Assembly (NCBI GenBank): GCA_036493475.1
Contig: DASXPS010000059.1
Span: 1 to 39,739 of the forward strand
Reading direction: 5' to 3'
DNA: 39,739 nt
DNA from: Sporichthyaceae bacterium
Lineage (GTDB): Bacteria; Actinomycetota; Actinomycetes; Sporichthyales; Sporichthyaceae
Shown: positions 2,571-25,872 of the stretch, one piece after another
How positions within the stretch are numbered: position 1 is the stretch's first letter
Layout of the letters: each line of letters starts with the position of its first letter
Program-made: the position numbers and the translations under genes
The notes under the pieces: model-generated
What the model was told of the DNA's origin: nothing
The model's input: only the letters and a program-made list of their open reading frames with translations
The model's database searches: none

Positions 2571-3545
2571 TCATGCCCCGATCCTGCCACGCATGAAGAT
2601 GCGACGGTACGCCGCTGCCAAGAGTCGCGGATCGTGACGTGGTGTTCCGTCGCCCAAAGCCACCGGTTCCAGGATCAACTCAGCACCCATGGAGCTCGCC
2701 GTTTTGCGCAACGCCTCGCGATCGGTGACCGCCGCCGGATCGGCGAGTACGACGTCAAGGCGCAGGTCGGGGGCGTGTTCGGCGAGTACCTCGAGATGAC
2801 GCTGTGGGGAAAAGCCGGTTGTCTCCCCCTGCTGCGCCTCGAGATTGAGGGCCACCGCCCGACCCGCCGACGTGGTGCACAAGGCCGCGGCAAGTTCGGG
2901 CACCAAAAGGTGCGGCAGCACGCTGGTGAACCATGATCCCGGCCCCAGCACCACCCACTCCGCCTCCCGGATGGCCGCGACCGCCTCCGGACAGGCGGGT
3001 GGATTCGGCGGCAGCAGACCGATGTTGACCACCCGGCCCCGGGTCGTGGCCACTGCGAACTGCCCACGCACGGCGGTGATCCGGTCGGGCACCGCCGGGT
3101 CCAGGCCGGCCACCGCGGCGGTGATGTCCAACGGCACCGAGGCCATCGGCAGCACCCGACCGCGCGCGCCGAGCAGTCGGCCCACCCAGTCCAGACCGGC
3201 CACCGGGTCGTCGAGCAACTCCCACAGCGCGACAATCAACACGTTGCCGACGGCGTGATTGTGCAGGTCCCCGGCCGCCCGGAAGCGGTGTTGCACCACG
3301 CGGCTCCAGGTGGCACCCCACTCGTCGTCGCCGCACAACGCGGCCAGCGCCATGCGCAGGTCACCGGGCGGCAGCACGCCGAGGTCGCGGCGCAGTCGCC
3401 CGCTGGAACCGCCGTCGTCGGCAACGGTGACCACTGCGGTGAGCGCGTCGGTGACCCGACGCAACGCGGTCAGCGAGACCGCCAAACCGTGACCGCCGCC
3501 GAGGGCGACCACCCGCGGGCCCTGGCGCTCGGGCGCGGGCCTCAT
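2571..3545 (-). CDS. yvcK: YvcK/CofD-like gluconeogenesis factor
   Basis: The 324-residue product has the family N-terminus VVALGGGHGLAVSLTALR, then VTVADDGGSSGRLRRDLG, LPPGDLRMALAAL and HNHAVGNVLIVAL, and later VLGPGSWFTSVLPHLLVP. These define the CofD-like Rossmann fold of YvcK (mycobacterial CuvA), a UDP-sugar-binding factor needed for growth on gluconeogenic carbon and for correct cell-wall enzyme placement. The ATG at 3545 has only a weak AGG upstream, so the start is less certain than the identity. It is co-oriented with rapZ (55 nt upstream) and whiA (44 nt downstream), the canonical arrangement. The rapZ-yvcK spacer contains a short purine/pyrimidine-rich direct repeat (cgctcgctgcgctcgctc) of no obvious role. 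Confidence 0.95.
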   Translation of the reverse strand: MRPAPERQGPRVVALGGGHGLAVSLTALRRVTDALTAVVTVADDGGSSGRLRRDLGVLPPGDLRMALAALCGDDEWGATWSRVVQHRFRAAGDLHNHAVGNVLIVALWELLDDPVAGLDWVGRLLGARGRVLPMASVPLDITAAVAGLDPAVPDRITAVRGQFAVATTRGRVVNIGLLPPNPPACPEAVAAIREAEWVVLGPGSWFTSVLPHLLVPELAAALCTTSAGRAVALNLEAQQGETTGFSPQRHLEVLAEHAPDLRLDVVLADPAAVTDREALRKTASSMGAELILEPVALGDGTPRHDPRLLAAAYRRIFMRGRIGA

Positions 3546-3600: not shown

Positions 3601-4500
3601 TCACTCTCGTCCCATGTCGCGGTGCACCACCCGGGTGGCCGGCCCGGTCGCGCTCAACCGCGTTCCGATCTCCTCGGCCATCGCCACGCTGCGGTGCTTG
3701 CCGCCGGTGCAGCCCACCGCCAACGTCACGTAACGCTTCCCCTCCCGGCGGTACCCCTCGATCACGTTGGTCAGCAGCGCGAGATATCCGGTGAGGAACT
3801 CGTACGCCCCCGGCCGGGACATCACGTACTTGCGCACCTCCGGGTCCAGCCCGGTGTAATCGCGCAGCTCCGGCACCCAGTGCGGGTTGGGCAGAAACCG
3901 GCAATCGACGACGAGATCGGCGTCCACCGGCAGCCCGTACTTGTAGCCGAAGGACACCACGGTGATCGACATCGTCGGGTCCATGCCGCCGCTGAACGCC
4001 TCGTCGATGCGTTCGCGCAGTTGGTGGACGTTCAACGTGGTGGTGTCGATGACGTGATCGGCGCGGCCGCGCAGGTCGCGCAGCAGCGCGCGCTCGGCGG
4101 CGATGCCGTCGGTGACCCGGCCGTCCTCCTGCAGCGGGTGCGGCCGGCGGACGTTCTCGAAGCGGCGGACCAGCGCGCCGTCGGAGGCCTCCAGGAACAC
4201 GATGCGCAGCAGCACGGCGCGGGCTTCGAGCTCCTCCAGGGCTTCGCGCAGGGTGTCGAAGAAGGCCCCGCCGCGCACGTCGACCACCGCGGCGATGTTC
4301 GGCACGGTGCCCTTGGTGCGCACGCCGAGCTCGACCAGCGGCGCGAGCAGGGCCGGCGGCAGGTTGTCGACCACGAACCAGCCCAGGTCCTCCAGCGCGT
4401 TGGCCGCGGTGCTCCGGCCCGCGCCGGACATGCCGGTGATGATGGTCAGCGCGATCGGGGCGCCGGGCTGGGCGCCCTCGCTCCCTGCGGACACGCTCAC
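3601..4500 (-). CDS. rapZ: RNase adapter / nucleotide-binding protein RapZ (YvcJ)
   Basis: The 299-residue P-loop protein has Walker [10 protein letters not shown] near residue 23, the family motif [10 protein letters not shown] just after it, VVDVRGG, and a C-terminal half with [21 protein letters not shown] and [16 protein letters not shown], the RapZ signature for RNA or metabolite binding. RapZ targets glmZ-type sRNAs in enterobacteria. In Gram-positives (YvcJ, Rv1421) it binds and hydrolyses nucleotides and is linked to the amino-sugar/cell-wall branch with YvcK. The ATG at 4500 overlaps the uvrC stop by 4 nt (ATGA), suggesting translational coupling. The P-loop has Arg where Lys is usual (GAGRS versus GxGKS); I have no alignment to say how common this is. 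Confidence 0.96.
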
Positions 4501-6488: not shown

Positions 6489-7025
6489 TTATGCGGTGAG
6501 GGAGACGTTTCCGCCGGAGACGCTGACGTTCTTGCTGGGCAACGGCTGCTGGGCGGGCCCGTGCACGACGGAGCCGTCGTTGATGGAGTACTTGCTGCCG
6601 TGACAGGGACAGTTGATGGTGCCGTCGGAGACGTCGGAGACCGTGCAGCCCTCGTGGGTGCAGATCGCACTGAACCCCTGGTAGCTGCCCGCGGTGGGTT
6701 GGGTCACCACGACCTTCTGCGCGTCGTAGATCTGTCCGCCGCCGACCGGGATGTCCGAGGACGCCCCGAGCGCCTCGCCACCGGAACTGCTCGAACCGCT
6801 GTCGCTTGCCGATGCGCTCGGTGACGGGCTGCCCTCGGTGGGGGCCGCCGCCGTCGGCGTGGAGCCGCCGGTGTCGCCGCCGGACGGGGCGCGCACCGCA
6901 CCGCTGTCCGAGGACGAGCCGCCACATCCGGCCAGCGCGCCTACCGCTCCCAGCGCCAGTGCTCCGCGCAGCACGGTGCGCCGCGCAGGGTGCGCCGGCA
7001 GCGTCGGGTCGTCGTGTTCGGGCAT
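6489..7025 (-). CDS. Tat lipoprotein with Rieske [2Fe-2S] domain (copy 1)
   Basis: The 178-residue protein starts at the ATG at 7025 behind GGAG. It has a twin-arginine motif (RRTVLRG), a hydrophobic stretch and a lipobox ending LAGC, then a Ser/Thr/Pro/Gly-rich linker to about residue 80. The Rieske domain has the cluster ligands C122, H124, C139 and H142 and the disulfide cysteines C127 and C141 (CTHEGC ... CPCHGS), the canonical high-potential pattern. It should be folded with its cluster in the cytoplasm, exported by Tat and anchored to the outer membrane face, acting as a one-electron carrier. The partner is unknown. A 537-codon open frame continues upstream, but that part is the antisense-like alternative frame of copy 2 and is not coding. 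Confidence 0.9.
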   Translation of the reverse strand: MPEHDDPTLPAHPARRTVLRGALALGAVGALAGCGGSSSDSGAVRAPSGGDTGGSTPTAAAPTEGSPSPSASASDSGSSSSGGEALGASSDIPVGGGQIYDAQKVVVTQPTAGSYQGFSAICTHEGCTVSDVSDGTINCPCHGSKYSINDGSVVHGPAQQPLPSKNVSVSGGNVSLTA

Positions 7026-7101
7026 GGGCTGGTCTCCTGTCGTGAGCTTCCGCGGCGGTCCCGCGACAGGGTATTCGGCCCCGATTAGCGCACGGTTGGC
7101 T

Positions 7102-7135
7102 GCCGGGACGCCATCACCGCAGACGGCATCCCGGC
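7102..7135 (-). terminator. hairpin after Rieske copy 2
   Basis: Arms 7102-7112 and 7125-7135 pair over 11 positions with one mismatch or wobble, around a 12-nt loop. It lies 10 nt past the stop of Rieske copy 2 and before the start of copy 1. It could terminate or attenuate between the two genes. There is no T-tract. Confidence 0.5.
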
Positions 7136-7144
7136 GGCCGCAGA

Positions 7145-7732
7145 TCAGACCTCGTAGACCTTGCCCCCCGCGACCTGGACCTTCTTCTTCGGCAGCGCCA
7201 CCGTGGCGGGACCGCCGAGCGGGTGCCCGTCCGTGATCGAGAACGAGCTGTTGTGACACCCACAGTTGATCGTGCCACCGTCGCAGTCGGCCAGGACGCA
7301 CTCCTGATGGGTGCAGACCGCGCTGAAGGCGAGGAACTCGCCCTTCTTGGGCTGGGTGACCACGATCTTCTGGTCGTCGAAGATCTTGCCGCCGTTGACC
7401 GGAATGTCCGAAGTCGGGCCGAGCTCCGTGCCCTTGGGCTTCACCGCCGCGGCCGTGGTGGCCTTGGGCTTCGCCTCCGCGCTTGCGGTGGCCTTGGGCG
7501 TCGACTTGGCCTTGGCCTTGGCCTTCTTCTTCGCCGCCGCGGTCGGCGACGGAGTGCTCTCCGGGGCCGCAGCGCCGGCGTCCGCCGGGGTCTGCGCCGC
7601 CGCATTGCTGTCCGAGGACGAGCCGCCGCAGCCGGCCAGGACACCAGCTGCCCCCAAAGCCAGTGCCCCGCGCAGCACGGTGCGGCGCGGAGGCTGCCCG
7701 GGAAGTGTCAGATCGTCGTCGTGCTCGGGCAT
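7145..7732 (-). CDS. Tat lipoprotein with Rieske [2Fe-2S] domain (copy 2)
   Basis: The start chosen is the ATG at 7732, giving MPEHDDDL, closely like copy 1 (MPEHDDPT), with AGGAGG 10 nt upstream; an in-frame extension of 11 residues upstream is possible. The 195-residue product has RRTVLRG, the lipobox LAGC, and a linker (about 55-110) that is unusually rich in Lys and Ala (KKKAKAKAKS). The Rieske ligands are C140, H142, C157 and H160, with disulfide cysteines C145 and C159. Glu replaces the usual Gly in CTHQEC, and Asn replaces the Gly after the last His (CGCHNSS). These changes sit beside the cluster and may shift its potential. An additional Cys (C150) lies between the two ligand boxes. 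It is a paralogue of its neighbours, with role and partner unknown. Confidence 0.9.
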   Translation of the reverse strand: MPEHDDDLTLPGQPPRRTVLRGALALGAAGVLAGCGGSSSDSNAAAQTPADAGAAAPESTPSPTAAAKKKAKAKAKSTPKATASAEAKPKATTAAAVKPKGTELGPTSDIPVNGGKIFDDQKIVVTQPKKGEFLAFSAVCTHQECVLADCDGGTINCGCHNSSFSITDGHPLGGPATVALPKKKVQVAGGKVYEV

Positions 7733-7820
7733 GGAGATGGCCCTCCTGTCGTCGGGTGGTGCCATAGCGGCATCCCGGACAGGTTATGCGAGGACCATCA
7801 CGGAACGGTTGCCTACAGGT

Positions 7821-7854
7821 CCCGGGACGCCAATTCGAAACATGGCGTCCCGGG
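7821..7854 (-). terminator. hairpin after Rieske copy 3
   Basis: CCCGGGACGCC (7821-7831) and GGCGTCCCGGG (7844-7854) pair perfectly over 11 bp around a 12-nt loop. The hairpin is 12 nt past the stop of Rieske copy 3. The sequence beside and within it (cggttg...cgggacgcc) resembles that of the hairpin after copy 2, so the spacer was probably duplicated with the gene. Confidence 0.6.
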
Positions 7855-7866
7855 GAGTTTGCAGGG

Positions 7867-8385
7867 TCAGCCAGCGGTGATCTTGCCCTTGACGATCTTG
7901 ACCTTCTTCTTGGGCAGGGGCACGGTGGCCGGGCCGCCCTGCGGGGCGCCGGTCGTGAAGTCGAACGAGCTGTTGTGACACCCGCAGTTAATCTTGCCGC
8001 CGTCACAGTCGGCCACGACGCACTGCTGGTGCGTGCAGACCGCGCTGAACGCATGCCACTGGCCCTTCTTGGGCTGGGTGACCACGATCTTCTGCGCGTC
8101 ATAGATCTTGCCCTGGCCGACCGGGACGTCCGAGACCGGGCCCAGCGGCTTGAGGCCGCCCTCGGTGCTCACCGGATACGCGGCGGCGACGTCGCCGTCC
8201 TCGCGCTTGTACAGGTCGGACTTTCCGGTCGGGTTCGGCTGCTCGGCGGCGCGGGCTGTGCCGGCGCCCAGCGGTGCAACGGCGGCCAGTCCGGCCACTG
8301 CAGCAGCACCACGAATCACCGTGCGGCGGGCGGGCGACGAAGCGTGTTCGTCGCTGATGTCATGGGGGTTCGGGGACTCAGTCAT
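7867..8385 (-). CDS. Tat-secreted Rieske [2Fe-2S] protein (copy 3)
   Basis: The 172-residue protein is the most upstream and probably first-transcribed member of the trio. Its Tat signal has RR at 20-21 (RRTVIRG), a hydrophobic core and ARA-A cleavage near residue 46. Unlike copies 1 and 2 it has no lipobox, so it should be soluble outside the membrane. Cluster ligands are C117, H119, C134 and H137, with disulfide cysteines C122 and C136. Like copy 2 it has CTHQ(E/Q)C, the extra Cys (C127) and CGCHNSS. There is no clear Shine-Dalgarno before the ATG at 8385; a good -10 box sits where a leaderless promoter would. A soluble carrier beside two membrane-anchored ones suggests a relay, but this is inference. 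Confidence 0.9.
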   Translation of the reverse strand: MTESPNPHDISDEHASSPARRTVIRGAAAVAGLAAVAPLGAGTARAAEQPNPTGKSDLYKREDGDVAAAYPVSTEGGLKPLGPVSDVPVGQGKIYDAQKIVVTQPKKGQWHAFSAVCTHQQCVVADCDGGKINCGCHNSSFDFTTGAPQGGPATVPLPKKKVKIVKGKITAG

Positions 8386-8573: not shown

Positions 8574-11417
8574 CTACTTACGGGAGAGCAACGGAGCCAG
8601 GAAACGTCCGGTGTGACTCTTCGAGCACTTGGCGACCTGCTCGGGAGTGCCGGCGACCACCACGGTGCCGCCGCCGGCGCCGCCCTCCGGACCCATGTCG
8701 ATGATCCAATCCGCGGTTTTCACCACGTCCAAGTTGTGCTCGATAACGATCACCGAGTTGCCCTTGTCGACCAGCGAGGTGAGCACGCCGAGCAATTTGC
8801 GCACATCCTCGAAATGCAGGCCGGTGGTCGGCTCATCGAGCACATAGACGGTCCGCCCGGTGGCCCGCTTCTGTAGTTCGGAAGCGAGTTTGACGCGCTG
8901 CGCCTCGCCGCCGGAAAGAGTCGGCGCGGGCTGACCGAGACGCACATAGCCCAAGCCGACCTGCACCAGCGTCTGCAGGTGTCGGGAGATCGCCGGGATG
9001 GCCTCGAAGAACTCCGCGGCCTCCTCGATCGGCATGTCCAGAACCTCGGCGATGGTCTTGCCCTTGTAATGCACCTCGAGGGTTTCCCGGTTGTACCGGG
9101 CGCCCTGACAGACCTCGCACGGCACGTACACGTCCGGCAAGAAATTCATTTCGATCTTGATGGTGCCGTCGCCGGCGCAGGCCTCGCAGCGTCCGCCCTT
9201 GACGTTGAAGGAGAACCGGCCGGGCAGGTAGCCGCGGACCTTAGCCTCCTGGGTCTGGGCGAACAGCTTGCGGATGTTGTCGAACACCCCGGTGTAGGTG
9301 GCCGGGTTGGACCGCGGGGTGCGTCCGATCGGTGACTGGTCAACGTGGATGGCCTTATCGACGTGCTCCAGGCCGTCGATGCGAATGTGTCGACCCGGGA
9401 CCTCCCGGGCGTTGTACAGGTGCCTGGCCAACGCGTTGTAGAGGATGTCGTTGACCAGGCTGGATTTGCCCGACCCGGACACCCCGGTGATCGCGACGAA
9501 GCAACCCAGCGGGAAAGACACCGTGATGTCCTGCAGGTTGTGTTCACGCGCCCCACGGACCGTCAGTTCCCACCCCTTCTGCGGCTTGCGCCGGGTCCTG
9601 GGTACCGGGATGGCACGGCGACCGGACAGGTAAGCCGCGGTCAGCGAGTCCTCGGTGGCGAGCAGATCCCGGTAGGGACCGGAGAACACGATCTGCCCGC
9701 CGTGTTCACCGGCGCCGGGCCCGATGTCCACCACCCAGTCCGCGGTGCGGATGGTGTCCTCGTCGTGCTCGACCACGATCAGCGTGTTGCCCAACCCCCG
9801 CAGCCGGATCAACGTGTCGATCAGCCGGTGGTTGTCCCGCTGGTGCAACCCGATGGACGGCTCGTCGAGCACATACAGCACGCCGACCAAACCCGAGCCG
9901 ATCTGGGTGGCCAACCGGATGCGCTGCGCCTCGCCACCGGCCAGGGTGCCCGCGGCCCGATCCAGACTCAGGTAGTCCAGCCCGACGTCGAGCAGGAAAC
10001 CCAGCCGCGCGTTGACCTCCTTGAGCACCCGCTCGGCGATCTGCCGCTCCCGCGGGCTCAACTCCAGCTCGCGCAGGAATTCCGCGCAGCCGGCGATCGG
10101 CAACGAGGCCACCTCGGCGATCGACCGTCCGCCCAGGGTGACCGCCAACGACACCGGCTTGAGCCGGGCACCCCCACAGGCCGGGCACGGCACCTCGCGC
10201 ATGTAGCCGGCGAACCGGTCCCGGCTGGCGTCGCTCTCCGCCTCCGCGTGACGCCGGCTCACCCACGGGATCACGCCCTCGAAACCGGTGTAGTACGAGC
10301 GCACCCGCCCGTAGCGGTTCTTGTACTTCACGTGCACCTGGTGGTTGTGGCCCTCCAGGATCGCCTTGCGGGCCTTGGCGGGCAGCTTCTGCCACGGAGT
10401 GTCCGTGCGGAAGCCGAGTGCCTCGCCCAACGCGGCGATCAGCCGGCCGAAGTACTCCGCGGTGTGCGCCGAGGCCCACGGCGCGACGGCGCCCTCATCC
10501 AGCGACTTCGACGGGTCCGGCACCACCAGCTCCGGGTCCACCTCCATCCGCGTGCCCAGGCCGGTGCAGTCCGGGCAGGCGCCGAACGGGGAGTTGAAGG
10601 AGAACGAGCGGGGCTCCAACTCCTCGAAGTCCAGGTCGTCGTAGAGGCAGGCCAGATGCTCGGAGAACACCCGCTCGCGGTGCGGGTCGTCCTCGGGCAG
10701 GTCGACGAATTCCAGCGTGACCAGCCCACCGGACAGACCCAATGCGGTCTCCACCGAGTCGGTGAGCCGGCGCTTGGCCGAGGACTTCACCGCGAGGCGG
10801 TCCACGACCACCTCGATGGTGTGCTTCTCCTGCTTCTTCAGCGTCGGCGGTTCGGTCAGCGGGTACACCACCCCGTCCACCCGGGCCCGGGAATAACCCT
10901 TCGACACCAGGTCCCGGAACAGCTCGCCGTACTCCCCCTTGCGCTCCCGGATCACCGGGGCGAGCACCTGGAACCGGCTGCCCTCGTCGAGTTCCAGCAC
11001 CCGGTCCACGATTTGCTGCGGGGTCTGCCGGGCGATCGGGCGACCACACACCGGGCAGTGCGGACGACCCGCGCGGGCGTAGAGCAACCGCAGGTAGTCG
11101 TAGACCTCGGTGATGGTGCCGACCGTCGAGCGCGGGTTGCGCGACGTGGACTTCTGGTCGATGGACACCGCGGGCGACAGGCCCTCGATGAAGTCGACAT
11201 CGGGCTTGTCCATCTGGCCCAGGAATTGCCGTGCGTAGGCGGACAACGACTCCACGTACCGGCGCTGGCCCTCGGCGAAGATCGTGTCGAAGGCCAGGCT
11301 GGACTTGCCCGACCCACTCAGCCCCGTGAACACGATCAGGCTGTCCCGCGGCAGATCCAACGAGACGTCCTTGAGGTTGTGCTCGCGGGCACCCCGGACG
11401 ATCAGCCGGTCGGCCAC
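8574..11417 (-). CDS. uvrA: excinuclease ABC subunit A
   Basis: UvrA is the damage-sensing ATPase that loads UvrB in nucleotide excision repair. From the GTG at 11417 ([15 protein letters not shown], the usual family N-terminus, with AAGGGG 5 nt upstream) it is 947 residues. The frame could be extended 12 codons to an ATG at 11453, less likely. Visible are Walker A of the first ABC domain (GLSGSGKS), the Zn module CPVC, the UvrB-binding region, further CxxC pairs (CPDC, CPACGG), the first signature (LAGGEAQRI) and Walker B ([10 protein letters not shown]), then Walker A of the second domain (GVSGSGKS), its Zn finger (CEAC...CEVC), signature (LSGGEAQRV) and Walker B ([10 protein letters not shown]). 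It is complete. It is divergent from the NIDO-protein gene and preceded downstream by a 188-nt spacer. Confidence 0.98.
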
Positions 11418-11593
11418 ACCCACCCCTTCGACGACGCTGCTACTCCATGACACCGCGGCGGCCGGCGGGCCGCCGGAATCATCGTAGGCAAAGCCACCGA
11501 CAAAGTTCCCGGACGGAGCAATCGCGACGACTCGGGCCGGTCCGGGCCGGCAGCCTCGTGATGATCATGGTCGGACTGTCTTTGGGGGACGGC

Positions 11594-13915
11594 ATGCGCG
11601 GACTGACGCGCCGGTGGCGAGTGTTGGCCGTATCCGGGGTACTGGTGGCCGGGGTAATCGCACCGGCCGCAGCCGACTCCGGCCTGCCGGGCGTCCCACA
11701 GCTCGGCAGCAACCCCGTCTCGGCGCTGCTCGACCTGATCACCGACAACGGTGACGACGCCTTCCAACTGGGCTGCCGAGGCAACCTGATCGCACCCACG
11801 GACGACGGCTCCTCCCCCGCCGTGCCGCTTCCGTTCTCGCCGAACTTCTTCGGCACCCGCGGCCGGCTCTACGTCAACAACAACGGCAACGTGACCTTCG
11901 GCAGCGCGCGCCCTGACTTCCACTTCGATGACCTGTCCGCGGACACCGGCAACCCGATGATCGCGCCGTTCCTGGCCGACGTGGACACCCGTGACGTGTT
12001 CCACTCGCAGGCCGTCACCTACGGGGTGTCCACCGACCAGAAGGTGTTCTGCGCGGATTGGCCCGGCGTCGGTTCCTACAGCAACCATGGCGACAAGCTC
12101 GACAAATTCCGCCTGCTGCTGATCGACCGGTCCACCGACCCCGGCAACGCCCCCGGCGACTTCGACATCGTCATGGACTACGACTTCATCAACTGGGACA
12201 CCGCGGACGCGAAGGCGCCGGCCGTCGCCGCCGTAGCGCGGGCCGGCTTCTCCGATGGCACCACCGCCTCCAACCACACGTTCCAATTGCCCGGCTCGGG
12301 CACGCCCGGCGCGTTCGGGGACAGCGGACCGAACTCGCTGGCCGAGCACAGCCTGGTCACCCACGACCAGCACGTGACGAAGCAGGCGGACGGCCGGTAC
12401 GTCTTCGCGGTGCGCGGCGGGCAGCCGCTGCCCGCGGGTCAACCGCCGGAGGTCGCGGACATCACCATGCACACCGCGCAGGACGTCCCGCTGCAGGTGA
12501 AGGTTCCGGCCACCGATCCCGACGGGGACGTGATGGTGCTGCACTCGGCAACCGACGGCGAGCACGGCAAGGTGAACTGCGTCAGCGACCCCGAGGCGGC
12601 AACCGGCCCGATCCACTGCGCCTACACCCCGGCCGCGGACTTCCACGGCACGGACTCGTTCAAGGTCACCGTCGCCGACAGCCACGCCAACCAGGGCACC
12701 GGCACCGTCAACGTGGTGGTGGACGCGGTCAACACGCCGCCCACGGTGGTCACGCCGCAGAGCATGACCGTGTCGGTGACCCACACATCGACCCCGACCA
12801 CATCGGCGACCAACGCACCGACGCCGGTCACCGGCAATGTGCTGACCGGAGCGAGCGACCCGAACGGCGACGCCGTGACGCTGACCGCACCGCTGACCCC
12901 CACGCCCACCGGGCACGGCAGCGTGGTTTGCACCGCCGACGGCCGGTGCACCTACACGCCGAACGCCACCTTCACCAAGGGCAGCACCGACACGTTCACC
13001 TTCACCGCCGCTGACGGCAAGGGCGCATCGACGTTCGGCACGGTGAACATCGCCGAGCACAACGATCCGCCGACCGCCGTCTTCGGGGCCCGACTGCAAA
13101 CGGCGAGCAACTCCCTCACGGTGGCCTTCGACGGCTCCGGCTCACATGACCCGCAGGGGCCGGTTGCGAGCTACGCGTGGGACTTCGGCGACGGCAGCAG
13201 CGGCGTCGGGGTCAGCCCGGTGCACACCTACCCGCAACCGGGCATCTACCAGGTGCGGCTCACGGTGACCGACTCCGGCGGCCTCACCAACTCGGTCAGT
13301 CGGTCGGTCCGACTGATTGCGGGTAGTACGCCGGACCACGCCGGGACCGGCTCCGGCGACACCGGCGGCACCGACCCCGGTGACGCCAATCCCGGCAACG
13401 CCAACCCCGACAGCACCAATCCCGGTAGCGCCGGGCCCGACAGCACAAATCCCGGTAGCGCCGGGCCCGCCGGGCAGGTGCCCGATCACGGCCCCGCCAC
13501 CAACCCGGGCAATGCTCCGAGCCATGCGCAGCCGCAGGGCCGCGATTCCGGAAAGAGCTCACACCGGAGTGCTCGCCACGACCGGCTGGAGCTGGTGAAC
13601 ACCGGCGGCCAGGGGTACAACATGCGCGGCACCGTCCGCGAGGGCGACTTCCGCATCGAGCGCGTGGACGGGCAGATCCGCCGGATTACCGGCACCGGGG
13701 AGTTCGGCGACGGCTCGTCGGTGACCTTCAACCTGCGCGTGCGCGACGACCACGCCTTCGGCACGATCGCGATTCGCGACAGCGATGGACGTCTCGACCG
13801 CTTCCGCGTGGACGGGGTGCGCATCGTTGATCACGGCGACACGGTGGAGGGGCACGCGAAGTATCGGGACAACGGCAGCCGCTTCGCCTTCGCCATTGAG
13901 GATCGACGCCACTGA
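11594..13915 (+). CDS. large secreted NIDO / cadherin-like / PKD surface protein
   Basis: The start is the ATG at 11594 (GGGGGA just upstream), giving MRGLTRRWRVL with a Sec signal peptide cut near AAA-DS at about 27. The 773-residue protein shows, in order: a NIDO (nidogen-like) domain (about 50-280) with LYVNNNGNVTFG and IAPFLADVDTR; two cadherin/Ig-like repeats (about 284-378 and 380-490) each with DPDGD or DPNGD and CxYTP-type motifs; a PKD domain (about 495-575, YAWDFGDGSS ... HTYPQPGIYQVRLTV); a low-complexity linker of NPGNA/DSTNPGSAGP repeats (about 590-626); and a C-terminal beta-rich domain (about 650-773) resembling the small C-terminal modules of bacterial surface proteins. There is no LPXTG and no C-terminal membrane segment. 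It is likely extracellular, with adhesion or matrix binding inferred from domains. Confidence 0.88.
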   Translation: MRGLTRRWRVLAVSGVLVAGVIAPAAADSGLPGVPQLGSNPVSALLDLITDNGDDAFQLGCRGNLIAPTDDGSSPAVPLPFSPNFFGTRGRLYVNNNGNVTFGSARPDFHFDDLSADTGNPMIAPFLADVDTRDVFHSQAVTYGVSTDQKVFCADWPGVGSYSNHGDKLDKFRLLLIDRSTDPGNAPGDFDIVMDYDFINWDTADAKAPAVAAVARAGFSDGTTASNHTFQLPGSGTPGAFGDSGPNSLAEHSLVTHDQHVTKQADGRYVFAVRGGQPLPAGQPPEVADITMHTAQDVPLQVKVPATDPDGDVMVLHSATDGEHGKVNCVSDPEAATGPIHCAYTPAADFHGTDSFKVTVADSHANQGTGTVNVVVDAVNTPPTVVTPQSMTVSVTHTSTPTTSATNAPTPVTGNVLTGASDPNGDAVTLTAPLTPTPTGHGSVVCTADGRCTYTPNATFTKGSTDTFTFTAADGKGASTFGTVNIAEHNDPPTAVFGARLQTASNSLTVAFDGSGSHDPQGPVASYAWDFGDGSSGVGVSPVHTYPQPGIYQVRLTVTDSGGLTNSVSRSVRLIAGSTPDHAGTGSGDTGGTDPGDANPGNANPDSTNPGSAGPDSTNPGSAGPAGQVPDHGPATNPGNAPSHAQPQGRDSGKSSHRSARHDRLELVNTGGQGYNMRGTVREGDFRIERVDGQIRRITGTGEFGDGSSVTFNLRVRDDHAFGTIAIRDSDGRLDRFRVDGVRIVDHGDTVEGHAKYRDNGSRFAFAIEDRRH
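13411..13470 (+). repeat. 30-bp tandem repeat inside the surface-protein gene
   Basis: Two nearly identical 30-bp units (13411-13440, 13441-13470) encode DSTNPGSAGP and a variant. They extend an older 15-bp repeat (13376-13410) coding for DPGDANPGNA-type pentapeptides. The repeat makes the linker between the PKD and C-terminal domains and could vary in number between strains. Confidence 0.85.
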
Positions 13916-16335: not shown

Positions 16336-16536
16336 TCAGTCGTCGACGAGGGTCAGCGCCTCGGTGGGGCAACCGTCGATCGCTTCCTGAACCACGTCCA
16401 TCTGGTCGTCCGAAGGATGCTCGCAGAGCACCGTCATCGAGCCGTCCGGCTGGATCTCGAACACGTCCGGTGCGGCGGCCTCGCACATGCCGAGGCCGGT
16501 GCACCGGTTGCGGTCGACGACGATCTTCTTAGGCAC
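16336..16536 (-). CDS. [3Fe-4S]-type ferredoxin, P450 redox partner
   Basis: This 66-residue protein (start GTG 16536, VPKKIVVDRNRCTGLGMC) has the pattern C-x5-C ... C-P (CTGLGMC and CPTEAL) of single-cluster ferredoxins; with three ligands in the classical positions a [3Fe-4S] cluster is expected. Such ferredoxins pass electrons from a reductase to the bacterial P450 encoded beside them. The start overlaps the P450 stop by 8 nt, so translation is probably coupled. No ferredoxin reductase gene is in the window. A strong hairpin follows. Confidence 0.93.
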   Translation of the reverse strand: MPKKIVVDRNRCTGLGMCEAAAPDVFEIQPDGSMTVLCEHPSDDQMDVVQEAIDGCPTEALTLVDD

Positions 16537-17881
16537 TACGCGTCTCCGGGGTCCTGTGCTTCTCAGGCGTGAAGGCAAAATCGAGGTGCGTGATCCCGCG
16601 CATGAAGTTCGTACCGAGGTATGTCGGGTTCGACGCCTTGAAGTCCGGGATCCGGGTGAGGATCTCGAAGAACAGCGCCCGCAGCATCGACTTCGCCAGG
16701 TTGCTGCCGAGGCAGAAGTGTACGCCGCCACCCCCGAACCCACAGTGCGGGTTCGGGTCGCGAGCGAGGTTCATCTCCCCCGGGTTCTCGAACGCCGTCT
16801 CGTCCCGGTTGCCCGAGCCGTAGAAGAACACCACCTTGTCGCCGGGCATGATCTGCTGCCCACACAACTCGGTCTCCACGATCGCGGTGCGCCGGAAGGT
16901 CATCACCACCGTGCCGAAGCGGATGAACTCCTCGATCGCGCCGTCGATGCGGCCCTCGAAATCCTCCATCAGCCAGGCGCGTTGTTCGGGCTGACTGGTC
17001 ATGCCCAACACGGCGTAGCTCGAGGTGTGCTTGGTGGTGTCGGTGGCGGCCACCGACATCAGCACGAAGAACGCTCCCAGTTGCGCCTCGTCCAACTTCT
17101 CGCCGTCGATCTCGGCCTGCACCAGCGCGGTGAACAGGTCATCGGTGGGGTTGCGCAGCCGCTCCTCGTACATCTCCCCGGCGATCTCGTGCAGCATCGA
17201 GGCGGCCTCGATCTGCACCTCGTCCGGCGCGCGACCCTGCAGGATCTCCGGGTCCGCCCAGGCGACGATGCCCTGGGCGGCGGTGATGGTGTCCTCCCAC
17301 CGGTCCCGGGGCACGCCCATGATCTCGCAGAAGGTGATCATGGGCAGTTTCTCGGCCAGGTCGACAGCGAAGTCGATCCGGCCCGCCTGCGCGATGTCGT
17401 CCACCAGCTGCTTGGCCGTCTGCCTGATCTTGTCCTCCATGCGCCGCACCTGCTTGGGCGTGAACGCGCTGGAGACCAGCTTGCGCAGCTTGTTGTGCAT
17501 CGGGTTGTCCATGGCCAGGAACGACTGCGTCATGGTCAGGAAGATCTTGGGCAGCATGTCGAAAATGACGCCCTGACCGGAGATGTAGACCTCGGAGTTC
17601 CGGCTGACCTCGTTGATCTCCTTCAACCGGGTCAACGCCCAATAGCCGGGGTCGTCGGGGTCCGGGGTCACCGCGTCCTCGACCGGTCGCTGCCAGGACA
17701 CCGGGCGCTGCTCGCGCAGCATGCGGAAGTGCTTGTCCTGCTCCGCGAACTCCATCTTCCAGAACGCCGAGGACGACACGTCGATCTCGTCGTAGTCGGG
17801 CTTGTTCTCCGACGTGGCCGGGAGAAAGGCGGTGTCGTCACCCTCGTCCCAGTCAACCTCGTCGATCAGGGCGTTGCTCAT
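16529..17881 (-). CDS. cytochrome P450, possible sterol/lipid hydroxylase
   Basis: Start ATG 17881 (MSNALIDEVDW) with GAGGAG 7 nt upstream gives 450 residues; a frame extension of 20 codons has no ribosome site. The I-helix segment is SVAATDTTKH, the ExxR motif is EEFIRF, and the heme loop is FGGGGVHFCLGSNLAK with the axial Cys in HFCLG. The length and heme-loop wording are like the mycobacterial CYP124/125/142 group that oxidises steroid side chains and branched lipids. The adjacent SCP2-like lipid-binding protein supports a hydrophobic substrate, but neither proves it. Electrons probably come from the overlapping ferredoxin. Confidence 0.93.
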   Translation of the reverse strand: MSNALIDEVDWDEGDDTAFLPATSENKPDYDEIDVSSSAFWKMEFAEQDKHFRMLREQRPVSWQRPVEDAVTPDPDDPGYWALTRLKEINEVSRNSEVYISGQGVIFDMLPKIFLTMTQSFLAMDNPMHNKLRKLVSSAFTPKQVRRMEDKIRQTAKQLVDDIAQAGRIDFAVDLAEKLPMITFCEIMGVPRDRWEDTITAAQGIVAWADPEILQGRAPDEVQIEAASMLHEIAGEMYEERLRNPTDDLFTALVQAEIDGEKLDEAQLGAFFVLMSVAATDTTKHTSSYAVLGMTSQPEQRAWLMEDFEGRIDGAIEEFIRFGTVVMTFRRTAIVETELCGQQIMPGDKVVFFYGSGNRDETAFENPGEMNLARDPNPHCGFGGGGVHFCLGSNLAKSMLRALFFEILTRIPDFKASNPTYLGTNFMRGITHLDFAFTPEKHRTPETRSA

Positions 17882-24013: not shown

Positions 24014-25366
24014 TCAGCGGTCCGCGGAGGGTTCCAGCACGGTGAACCGCACGCCGGCCACCGGCGCCGCGGTCGATGCCGGGGTGGGCGTGGCGGAGCG
24101 CGGGATCGGGCGCGGCGCGGGACGACGAATCCGTCGCGGTCGGATGCCGAACATGTACACCGCGCCCATCAGGTAGATCGCGGTGAGCAGGCCCTGAGCG
24201 AGGATCGTCTCCCGGCTGGGCCAGTAGCCCACCGACTGGGACACGAAGATCGGCGCGGTCGGCCAGCTGTCCCACCGGTGCAGCGCGAGCACGTCGGCCT
24301 CCTGCAGCGCGCGCACCGCGTTGCCGAGGAAGGCCACCGAGGTGGCCATGAGCAGGATCACCGCGGTGGACAGGAACACCTTGACCGGGATGCGCCGGCC
24401 GAGCCGGAACACCACCCAGGCGACCACCGCCAGGCACACCGCCCCGGTAAGGACCCCGGCCACGATGTACCAGCCCAGGCCCGAACCGAAGCCGGCCAAC
24501 GCCTGGTAGAACAACGCGGTTTCGAACCCCTCGCGGTACAGCGCGGTGAAGCCGACCAGCGTCAGCGCGGTCGCCGAGCCGGCCGAGGCCGCCGTCCACA
24601 CCCGGGCGCGCAGGAACTCCAACCAGCGCTTCTGTTCCATCCGCGAGATCAGCCAGAACGAAACCCAGAACAGCACCACCACCGCCAGCAGCGCGGTGAT
24701 GGCCTCGAGCAGTTCCCGGCCGAACGGCAAGGCCTGCAGCACGCCCTGCAACAGGAAGAACGTGCCGATGGTGGCCAGCACCGCGGCGCCCATGCCGATG
24801 AGCACCGGCTTGCGGAACCGCCCGGCCTTGGCCGCCTCCAGGTACCCCAGCAGCACCGAGATCAGCAGCACGGCCTCCAGGCCCTCCCGGAAGATGATCA
24901 CGAAGGCCTGGCCGAAGACCAGCGATGGCGCGGACAGGCCGGTGTCGGTGAGCGTGCGTTCGGCGTCGTCGATGAGTCCGCGCAGGTCGATGATCTCGCT
25001 GCGGATCTCCGCGACCGGGGCGTGCGAGGAAATGGATCCGCGGATCTCGGCGAACTTGGTTTCCGCGCGGGCGGTGAGTCCGGCGTCGGCCACCCGCAGC
25101 GGGATCTCGACGTACTCGAAGTGGCTGAGGTAGCCGTCCTTGGCCTCGGTGAAGGCCTGCTCGGCGTGGCCCTCCTTACTGAGCGCAAGCGTGCGGTCGA
25201 TGGAGCCGCGCACGATCTGCAACTGGTGGATGGCGTCGGACCGGGACACGCCGGTGGACACCGCGGCACCCGCGGTGCTCGCGCCGGCCAGCTGCAGGCC
25301 GAGCAGCGCCGCGAGCAGCAGCAGCCCGGCGGCGGCCCAGCGGCGGGGTGCGCGGTCGATGGTCAT
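24014..25366 (-). CDS. efeU: EfeU/FTR1-family iron permease
   Basis: The 450-residue protein has a signal-like N-terminus (to about 35), an extracytoplasmic helical domain (about 38-145) and then the FTR1 membrane domain of about seven segments. The two iron-binding REGLE-type motifs are present at 160-164 (REGLE) and 278-282 (REGFE). FTR1-type permeases pass iron across the membrane together with an oxidase or an EfeO/EfeB system. Its start overlaps the lipoprotein stop by 1 nt (TGATG), indicating coupling. No EfeB (DyP peroxidase) gene is present. An iron box lies upstream of the operon, so low-iron induction is expected. Confidence 0.92.
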   Translation of the reverse strand: MTIDRAPRRWAAAGLLLLAALLGLQLAGASTAGAAVSTGVSRSDAIHQLQIVRGSIDRTLALSKEGHAEQAFTEAKDGYLSHFEYVEIPLRVADAGLTARAETKFAEIRGSISSHAPVAEIRSEIIDLRGLIDDAERTLTDTGLSAPSLVFGQAFVIIFREGLEAVLLISVLLGYLEAAKAGRFRKPVLIGMGAAVLATIGTFFLLQGVLQALPFGRELLEAITALLAVVVLFWVSFWLISRMEQKRWLEFLRARVWTAASAGSATALTLVGFTALYREGFETALFYQALAGFGSGLGWYIVAGVLTGAVCLAVVAWVVFRLGRRIPVKVFLSTAVILLMATSVAFLGNAVRALQEADVLALHRWDSWPTAPIFVSQSVGYWPSRETILAQGLLTAIYLMGAVYMFGIRPRRIRRPAPRPIPRSATPTPASTAAPVAGVRFTVLEPSADR

Positions 25367-25872
25367 CAGGGGGTCGGCGAGGCCGAGGAACTGGGCGACG
25401 ACGAGGTCGACGGGCTCGGCGAGGCGGCGTTTACCGGGTGTGCCGCCAGGTAGGAGTCGGCGGTCGTGGTCACCAGCGCAGCTGCGGTCTTCGCAGAGGT
25501 GTCGTCCTTCTGCGTGACCGCCTTGCCGATCACCGCGAACTGGTCCTCGAAGGTGAGGTAGGCATTGGAGTCGTTGGCCTTGATGGTGCCCTCGATGCTC
25601 TCCCAGATCGGCTCGATCTGTGCCTGCAGGTCCTTGGCGTGGTTGTTGTCCGACGACGCGCTGTCACCGATCTGGTTGGCGATGTCCTTGAGCTTGCCCA
25701 GGCCGTCGGCGACCTCGGAATCCGGGGCGCGTACGTCCTCCGGCGAGCCGTTGCCGTGCTCGGTGCCGACCGCCGGGGAATCGGCATGCGACGAGCTACC
25801 GCCGCAGGCGCTGACCCCCAGAATCATTGCCCCGGCCAACGTCCCGGCGGCCAACACGCGCCTCGCTTGCAT
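25366..25872 (-). CDS. lipoprotein, EfeO-like helical domain, first gene of the EfeU operon
   Basis: The start chosen is the ATG at 25872 (MQARRVLAAG), giving 168 residues; a TTG two codons upstream is the longest possible start. The signal ends in a lipobox, VSAC, with Cys at 23. The mature part is helical and acidic-polar (QIEPIWESIEGTIKANDSNAY, FEDQFAVIGKAV), reminiscent of the helical M75/EfeO-like domain of iron-uptake proteins. It then ends in a Ser/Pro-rich tail. No cupredoxin domain is visible. It should be anchored to the outer membrane face and may collect iron for EfeU. Identification as EfeO-like is by partial motif only. Confidence 0.8.
   Translation of the reverse strand: MQARRVLAAGTLAGAMILGVSACGGSSSHADSPAVGTEHGNGSPEDVRAPDSEVADGLGKLKDIANQIGDSASSDNNHAKDLQAQIEPIWESIEGTIKANDSNAYLTFEDQFAVIGKAVTQKDDTSAKTAAALVTTTADSYLAAHPVNAASPSPSTSSSPSSSASPTP

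Follow-up and report, generated by a model that had tools for sequence, protein, structure and literature searches.

Three tandem Tat-signal Rieske proteins between uvrA and uvrC in a Sporichthyaceae genome, probably duplicated locally from a widespread actinomycete family

Three Rieske genes between uvrA and uvrC

We analyzed a 39,739-nucleotide stretch of a Sporichthyaceae genome, here called the window. Its minus strand carries three intact Rieske [2Fe-2S] genes in a head-to-tail array (8385-6489) between uvrA and uvrC, transcribed in the order copy 3, copy 2, copy 1, uvrC, with only nine bases between the copy 1 stop and the uvrC start. Three homologous 280-nt blocks stand in register across the array, so the trio is no chance reading. 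For copy 2, we took the start at 7732, which has an AGGAGG site and matches the start of copy 1; the earliest ATG in the open reading frame listing is at 7765. The features of the locus are as follows.

8574-11453, minus strand: uvrA, the upstream flank of the recurrent slot
7867-8385, minus strand: Rieske copy 3, 172 aa, first gene of the array, with an extra loop cysteine
7822-7853, minus strand: hairpin of 12 pairs just past the copy 3 stop, no T run, z -4.4
7145-7732, minus strand: Rieske copy 2, 195 aa, with a Lys/Ala/Pro-rich linker and an extra loop cysteine; mosaic
7103-7134, minus strand: strong hairpin just past the copy 2 stop, no T run, z -5.6
6489-7025, minus strand: Rieske copy 1, 178 aa, with a Ser/Gly/Pro-rich linker and the box CPCHGSKY, which holds Ser and Tyr tuning residues
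4497-6479, minus strand: uvrC, the downstream flank of the recurrent slot
3601-4500, 2571-3545 and 1546-2421: rapZ, yvcK and whiA, in that order beyond uvrC

All three products match the Pfam Rieske family above its gathering score (E = 4.5e-13, 7.7e-12 and 3.5e-13), and their ligand boxes are intact: CTHQQC/CGCH in copy 3, CTHQEC/CGCH in copy 2, and CTHEGC/CPCH in copy 1. The disulfide cysteines of the high-potential, bc/b6f-like type are present in every copy (CTHxxC and CxCH), as is the VxTQP motif before the first ligand box that is also found in the family occupying the uvrA-uvrC slot. Judging from these residues, all three proteins probably carry a cluster. The copy 2 domain was modeled by AlphaFold2 as a Rieske fold with a mean pLDDT of 97.7, and in a Foldseek search it falls among Rieske proteins. 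The best solved match, 8hn2 from Chlorobaculum tepidum, has the same fold and 35% identity over 93 alignment columns; it is annotated as a cytochrome b6-f-type subunit, whereas the trio has no cytochrome b gene beside it. PetC3 of the Synechocystis plasma membrane (5cxm) is likewise an extracytoplasmic Rieske domain matching in structure and sequence, although it comes from a different phylum.

The copies differ around the cluster. Copies 2 and 3 share the box CGCHNSSF, and the stretch linking their two ligand boxes holds an extra cysteine (ADCDGG) that no other copy shows among about 145 inspected. The second-sphere tuning pair is Ser and Tyr in copy 1 and Ser and Phe in copies 2 and 3.

The copies also differ in their predicted anchoring. 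By motif inspection, all three have the twin-arginine signal RRTV[LI]RG. A LAGC lipobox goes with it in copies 1 and 2 but not in copy 3, whose signal ends ARA-A and is predicted to be cut by signal peptidase I behind ARA. All three would be exported, two of them apparently anchored by lipid and one apparently not. By the same inspection, the lipobox is missing from several relatives too, while in a sister genus (genomes G002 and G003) all three array copies have one, unlike copy 3 of the window. The first-pass annotation had described three tandem Rieske genes at these positions, with all ligand and disulfide residues kept, a twin-arginine signal and a lipobox in copies 1 and 2, and a twin-arginine signal with an ordinary cleavage site in copy 3; our inspection of the frames and motifs of each copy agrees with it throughout.

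The hairpins that follow copies 3 and 2 are GC-rich and related in sequence, and each folds far better than its shuffles; the pattern has just one further occurrence in the genome. They are possibly terminators or attenuators, but because they lack a T run, a terminator function is only a guess.

Several other genes of the window can be recorded here. Divergent from uvrA, at 11447-13915, is a gene for a predicted secreted protein with nidogen-like, bacterial Ig/cadherin-like and PKD domains. At 16336-17881, on the minus strand, a small ferredoxin gene adjoins a cytochrome P450 gene. An FTR1-family iron permease is encoded at 24014-25366, and together with a small predicted lipoprotein of unassigned family it spans 24014-25827.

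Probable duplication, recombination and the recurrent slot

Copy 2 is a mosaic of a copy-1-like export end and a copy-3-like domain. Over the 35 shared codons of the signal, it has 78% nucleotide identity with copy 1 and 52% with copy 3, whereas in the domain the figures are 67% and 79%, respectively. A permutation test of the best break point gives p = 0.0005. Part of the pattern could come from a copy 3 signal that has changed more quickly. Recombination is nevertheless the simpler reading, because copies 1 and 2 are more alike in the signal than in the domain, even though signal peptides generally evolve faster than cofactor domains do.

The domain tree places copies 2 and 3 as sisters (support 100/93), but it has 96 columns and is poorly resolved, and a free quick search missed better trees. 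Neither holding all three window copies as one clade nor joining copies 2 and 3 to the uvrA-proximal copies of Nonomuraea was rejected by AU tests (p 0.73 for each). We therefore limit our claims about history to the sister relation of copies 2 and 3 and to recombination.

The slot itself is not particular to this genome. The order uvrA-Rieske-uvrC recurs in many families, with a single copy in many of the slots and two or three in others; because likeness to copy 1 decided which named genomes were included, the counts do not give frequencies. Two copies occur in Actinoallomurus and in Planobispora, where the contig ends at that point, and three in both sister-genus genomes, Nonomuraea, Thermoactinospora and Thermocatellispora. 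Another genome of the same genus as the window has a single copy in the slot, and the Streptomyces relatives sampled lie outside it, among housekeeping genes. The sister genus has more exported Rieske copies elsewhere (L049, L051, L052), several of them without a lipobox, and with Lys-rich linkers. A search of the literature for the uvrA-Rieske-uvrC arrangement found nothing relevant.

Beyond the slot, 394 genomes drawn from the class were scanned with the domain profile, and 356 of them contain between one and five matches, some of the weaker ones being more distant Rieske types. The family signature is VVTQP...CTHxxC...CxCHxS, and most relatives are Tat lipoproteins by motif. Actinomycete proteins that Rhodococcus and Nocardia records call "Rieske (2Fe-2S) protein", with counterparts we found in Streptomyces, Nonomuraea and other genera, share this signature and the Tat signal, usually have a lipobox, often sit in the uvrA-uvrC slot, and sometimes stand three in tandem, like the window trio. 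Compared with them, copies 2 and 3 of the window are distinguished by the loop cysteine and CGCHNSSF, and copy 3 by its lack of a lipobox.

The first-pass annotation knew of no described system with this composition. The search for the three-gene order in other actinobacteria changes that picture: up to three tandem copies occupy the same slot in several actinomycete groups, and single copies are very widespread across the class. The trio belongs to an ordinary, widespread family that has been tripled and reshuffled locally, and what is particular to this genome is the loop cysteine of copies 2 and 3, the missing lipobox of copy 3, and the mosaic copy 2. In-place duplication, with the copies multiplied by tandem duplication and recombination, is the best explanation of the array.

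Such a history also raises the possibility that the copies all do the same job and that their number drifts by unequal crossing-over, as a simple expansion of gene dosage. The variation of slot copy number from one to three among relatives, the single copy in the other genome of the genus, and the recombination between copies that produced the mosaic copy 2 all favor this idea. It has to be set against the differences among the window copies in anchor, linker and second-sphere residues, and against purifying selection on the orthologous copies of the sister genus (pN/pS 0.10 and 0.28). On balance, we regard expansion for dosage as a possible but rather doubtful account.

Partner genes in the genome and among relatives

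As the first-pass annotation had stated, no cytochrome b, oxidase or oxygenase gene is adjacent to the trio; we saw no reductase or other redox gene next to the array either. The nearest oxygenase seen is the P450 of the P450-ferredoxin pair, 8 kb off on the far side of uvrA. Among rejected candidates, DUF2231 and DoxX proteins are present in the genome but unlinked to the trio, and a dioxygenase-type Rieske ferredoxin was set aside on account of the export signals, the disulfide cysteines and the lack of an adjacent oxygenase.

Membership in a respiratory bc1-type complex or in an arsenite oxidase was considered as well. The domain fold is alike, and models for QcrA, b6f and AioB give weak matches, but all such NCBIfam models score far below their cut-offs: 32-45 bits against 275 for QcrA, at most 56 against 154 for b6f, and 27-34 against 95.65 for AioB (TIGR02694). 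QcrA of the actinobacterial bcc-aa3 supercomplex resembles the trio in having a Rieske domain and an exported cluster, but in this genome it is a separate protein of 352 aa, encoded on contig C217 beside the genome's single match to the N-terminal cytochrome b domain, away from the trio. No large arsenite oxidase subunit (AioA) was found above cut-off in the genome. We consider either kind of subunit extremely unlikely.

The trio does not invariably accompany a known reductase, but its relatives elsewhere do have recurrent neighbors. One is DUF6529 (L149:6330-6914, L055:6182-6766, L121, L151, L062 and L163-L192): in 26 of 30 DUF6529 loci inspected, a Rieske gene is no more than 1.5 kb away, several times with overlapping stop and start codons. 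Four histidines are invariant in DUF6529, a helical membrane protein, and many, though not all, of the adjacent Rieske proteins have the family signature or its QP motif. The top Foldseek matches of its model are STEAP and cytochrome b561, a likeness to b-type cytochromes that is suggestive only: the matches are weak (E 0.03-0.2), the model pLDDT is 69, and the VIA-align list consists of generic helical bundles. We therefore set aside a b561-like identity for DUF6529, of which we found no mention in the literature searched. The Rieske partner in many of these pairs has the signature of the trio, but searches of the window's genome and of other members of its family did not recover DUF6529, and we do not count the trio as part of a DUF6529-Rieske module.

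A second association is an operon on Rhodococcus and Nocardia plasmids in which a Tat-signal multicopper oxidase, a ZIP-like transporter and a Rieske protein of the same family are encoded together (L226:1525-4261, L228, L229 and L230), several times in metal-resistance surroundings. By analogy, the trio might serve as redox partner of an exported metal-handling enzyme, such as a multicopper oxidase or a metal uptake system. The linkage in one operon on all four plasmids examined and the presence of the FTR1 iron permease in the same window are consistent with this. However, neither the window's genome nor other members of its family yielded the ZIP-like protein, the oxidase has only a weak relative in the genome, and FTR1 lies 16 kb away in another gene group, so that a metal-handling role seems unlikely for the trio. 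The ZIP-like transporter was also rejected as a general marker of the module, chromosomal relatives sampled not being beside the Rieske family.

More distant relatives include fusions of DoxX and Rieske domains (L047:5416-6537, L072 and L077). The fusion in L077 directly follows uvrA, and that in L047 is convergent with an exported Rieske gene.

A probable carrier role

We think it likely that the trio consists of Tat-exported one-electron carriers that arose as in-place duplicates of the widespread actinomycete Rieske gene. Stand-alone Rieske domains are one-electron carriers. Each protein would fold around its cluster in the cytoplasm and then be exported by Tat, and Tat export with a lipid anchor would position the cluster at the membrane's outer face, where the protein could act as a one-electron carrier. 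Copies 1 and 2 would be held there by their lipid through a flexible linker; copy 3 would be free or associated with the wall. Because no partner adjoins the trio, and neither DUF6529 nor the ZIP-like protein was found in its genome or family, the carrier role is argued by analogy, from the domain and from the neighbors of relatives, and on these grounds it is the most likely one. A point against it is that pN/pS among the window copies is high (0.60-0.98), and part of their divergence may reflect relaxed constraint.

The first-pass annotation had suggested a small extracytoplasmic electron relay. Its extracytoplasmic carrier survives as the most likely function, but nothing shows the three copies acting as one relay, and the trio needs none, since duplication and recombination within the array explain it. 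A tuned relay would have copies of differing potential pass electrons outward from the membrane, with copy 3 as the diffusible outer carrier. The Tyr kept in copy 1 and replaced by Phe in copies 2 and 3, the differing anchors, with two lipoboxes against one copy without, and the extra loop cysteines could all be taken as signs of it. In yeast, mutating the second-sphere Ser or Tyr of the Rieske protein lowers its potential by about 130 or 65 mV, respectively (PMC12954380), and judged by its residues copy 1 might be the higher-potential member of the trio. We claim no gradient, however: a Phe-bearing Rieske protein has been reported at +335 mV (PMC12954380), so the potential is unreadable from the Tyr/Phe residue. 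Moreover, Tyr and Phe vary freely among single-copy relatives, and the array copies of the sister genus are all lipoproteins. We judge a tuned relay to be improbable. Very unlikely, in our estimation, is a still more elaborate form, in which three Rieske proteins with differing potentials and tethers would make up a dedicated extracytoplasmic wire, recombination would swap export and anchor modules between copies, and the loop cysteine would give copies 2 and 3 a second redox or dimerization function.

Likely carriers duplicated in place, the three proteins belong to a family for which we found no assigned function. An exported iron-sulfur protein is present in about nine of every ten sampled genomes of the class with its function unassigned. 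The linkages of relatives to DUF6529 and to the multicopper oxidase are the most valuable leads and offer concrete, testable partners, and the window array shows anchor and redox modules reshuffled between tandem copies.
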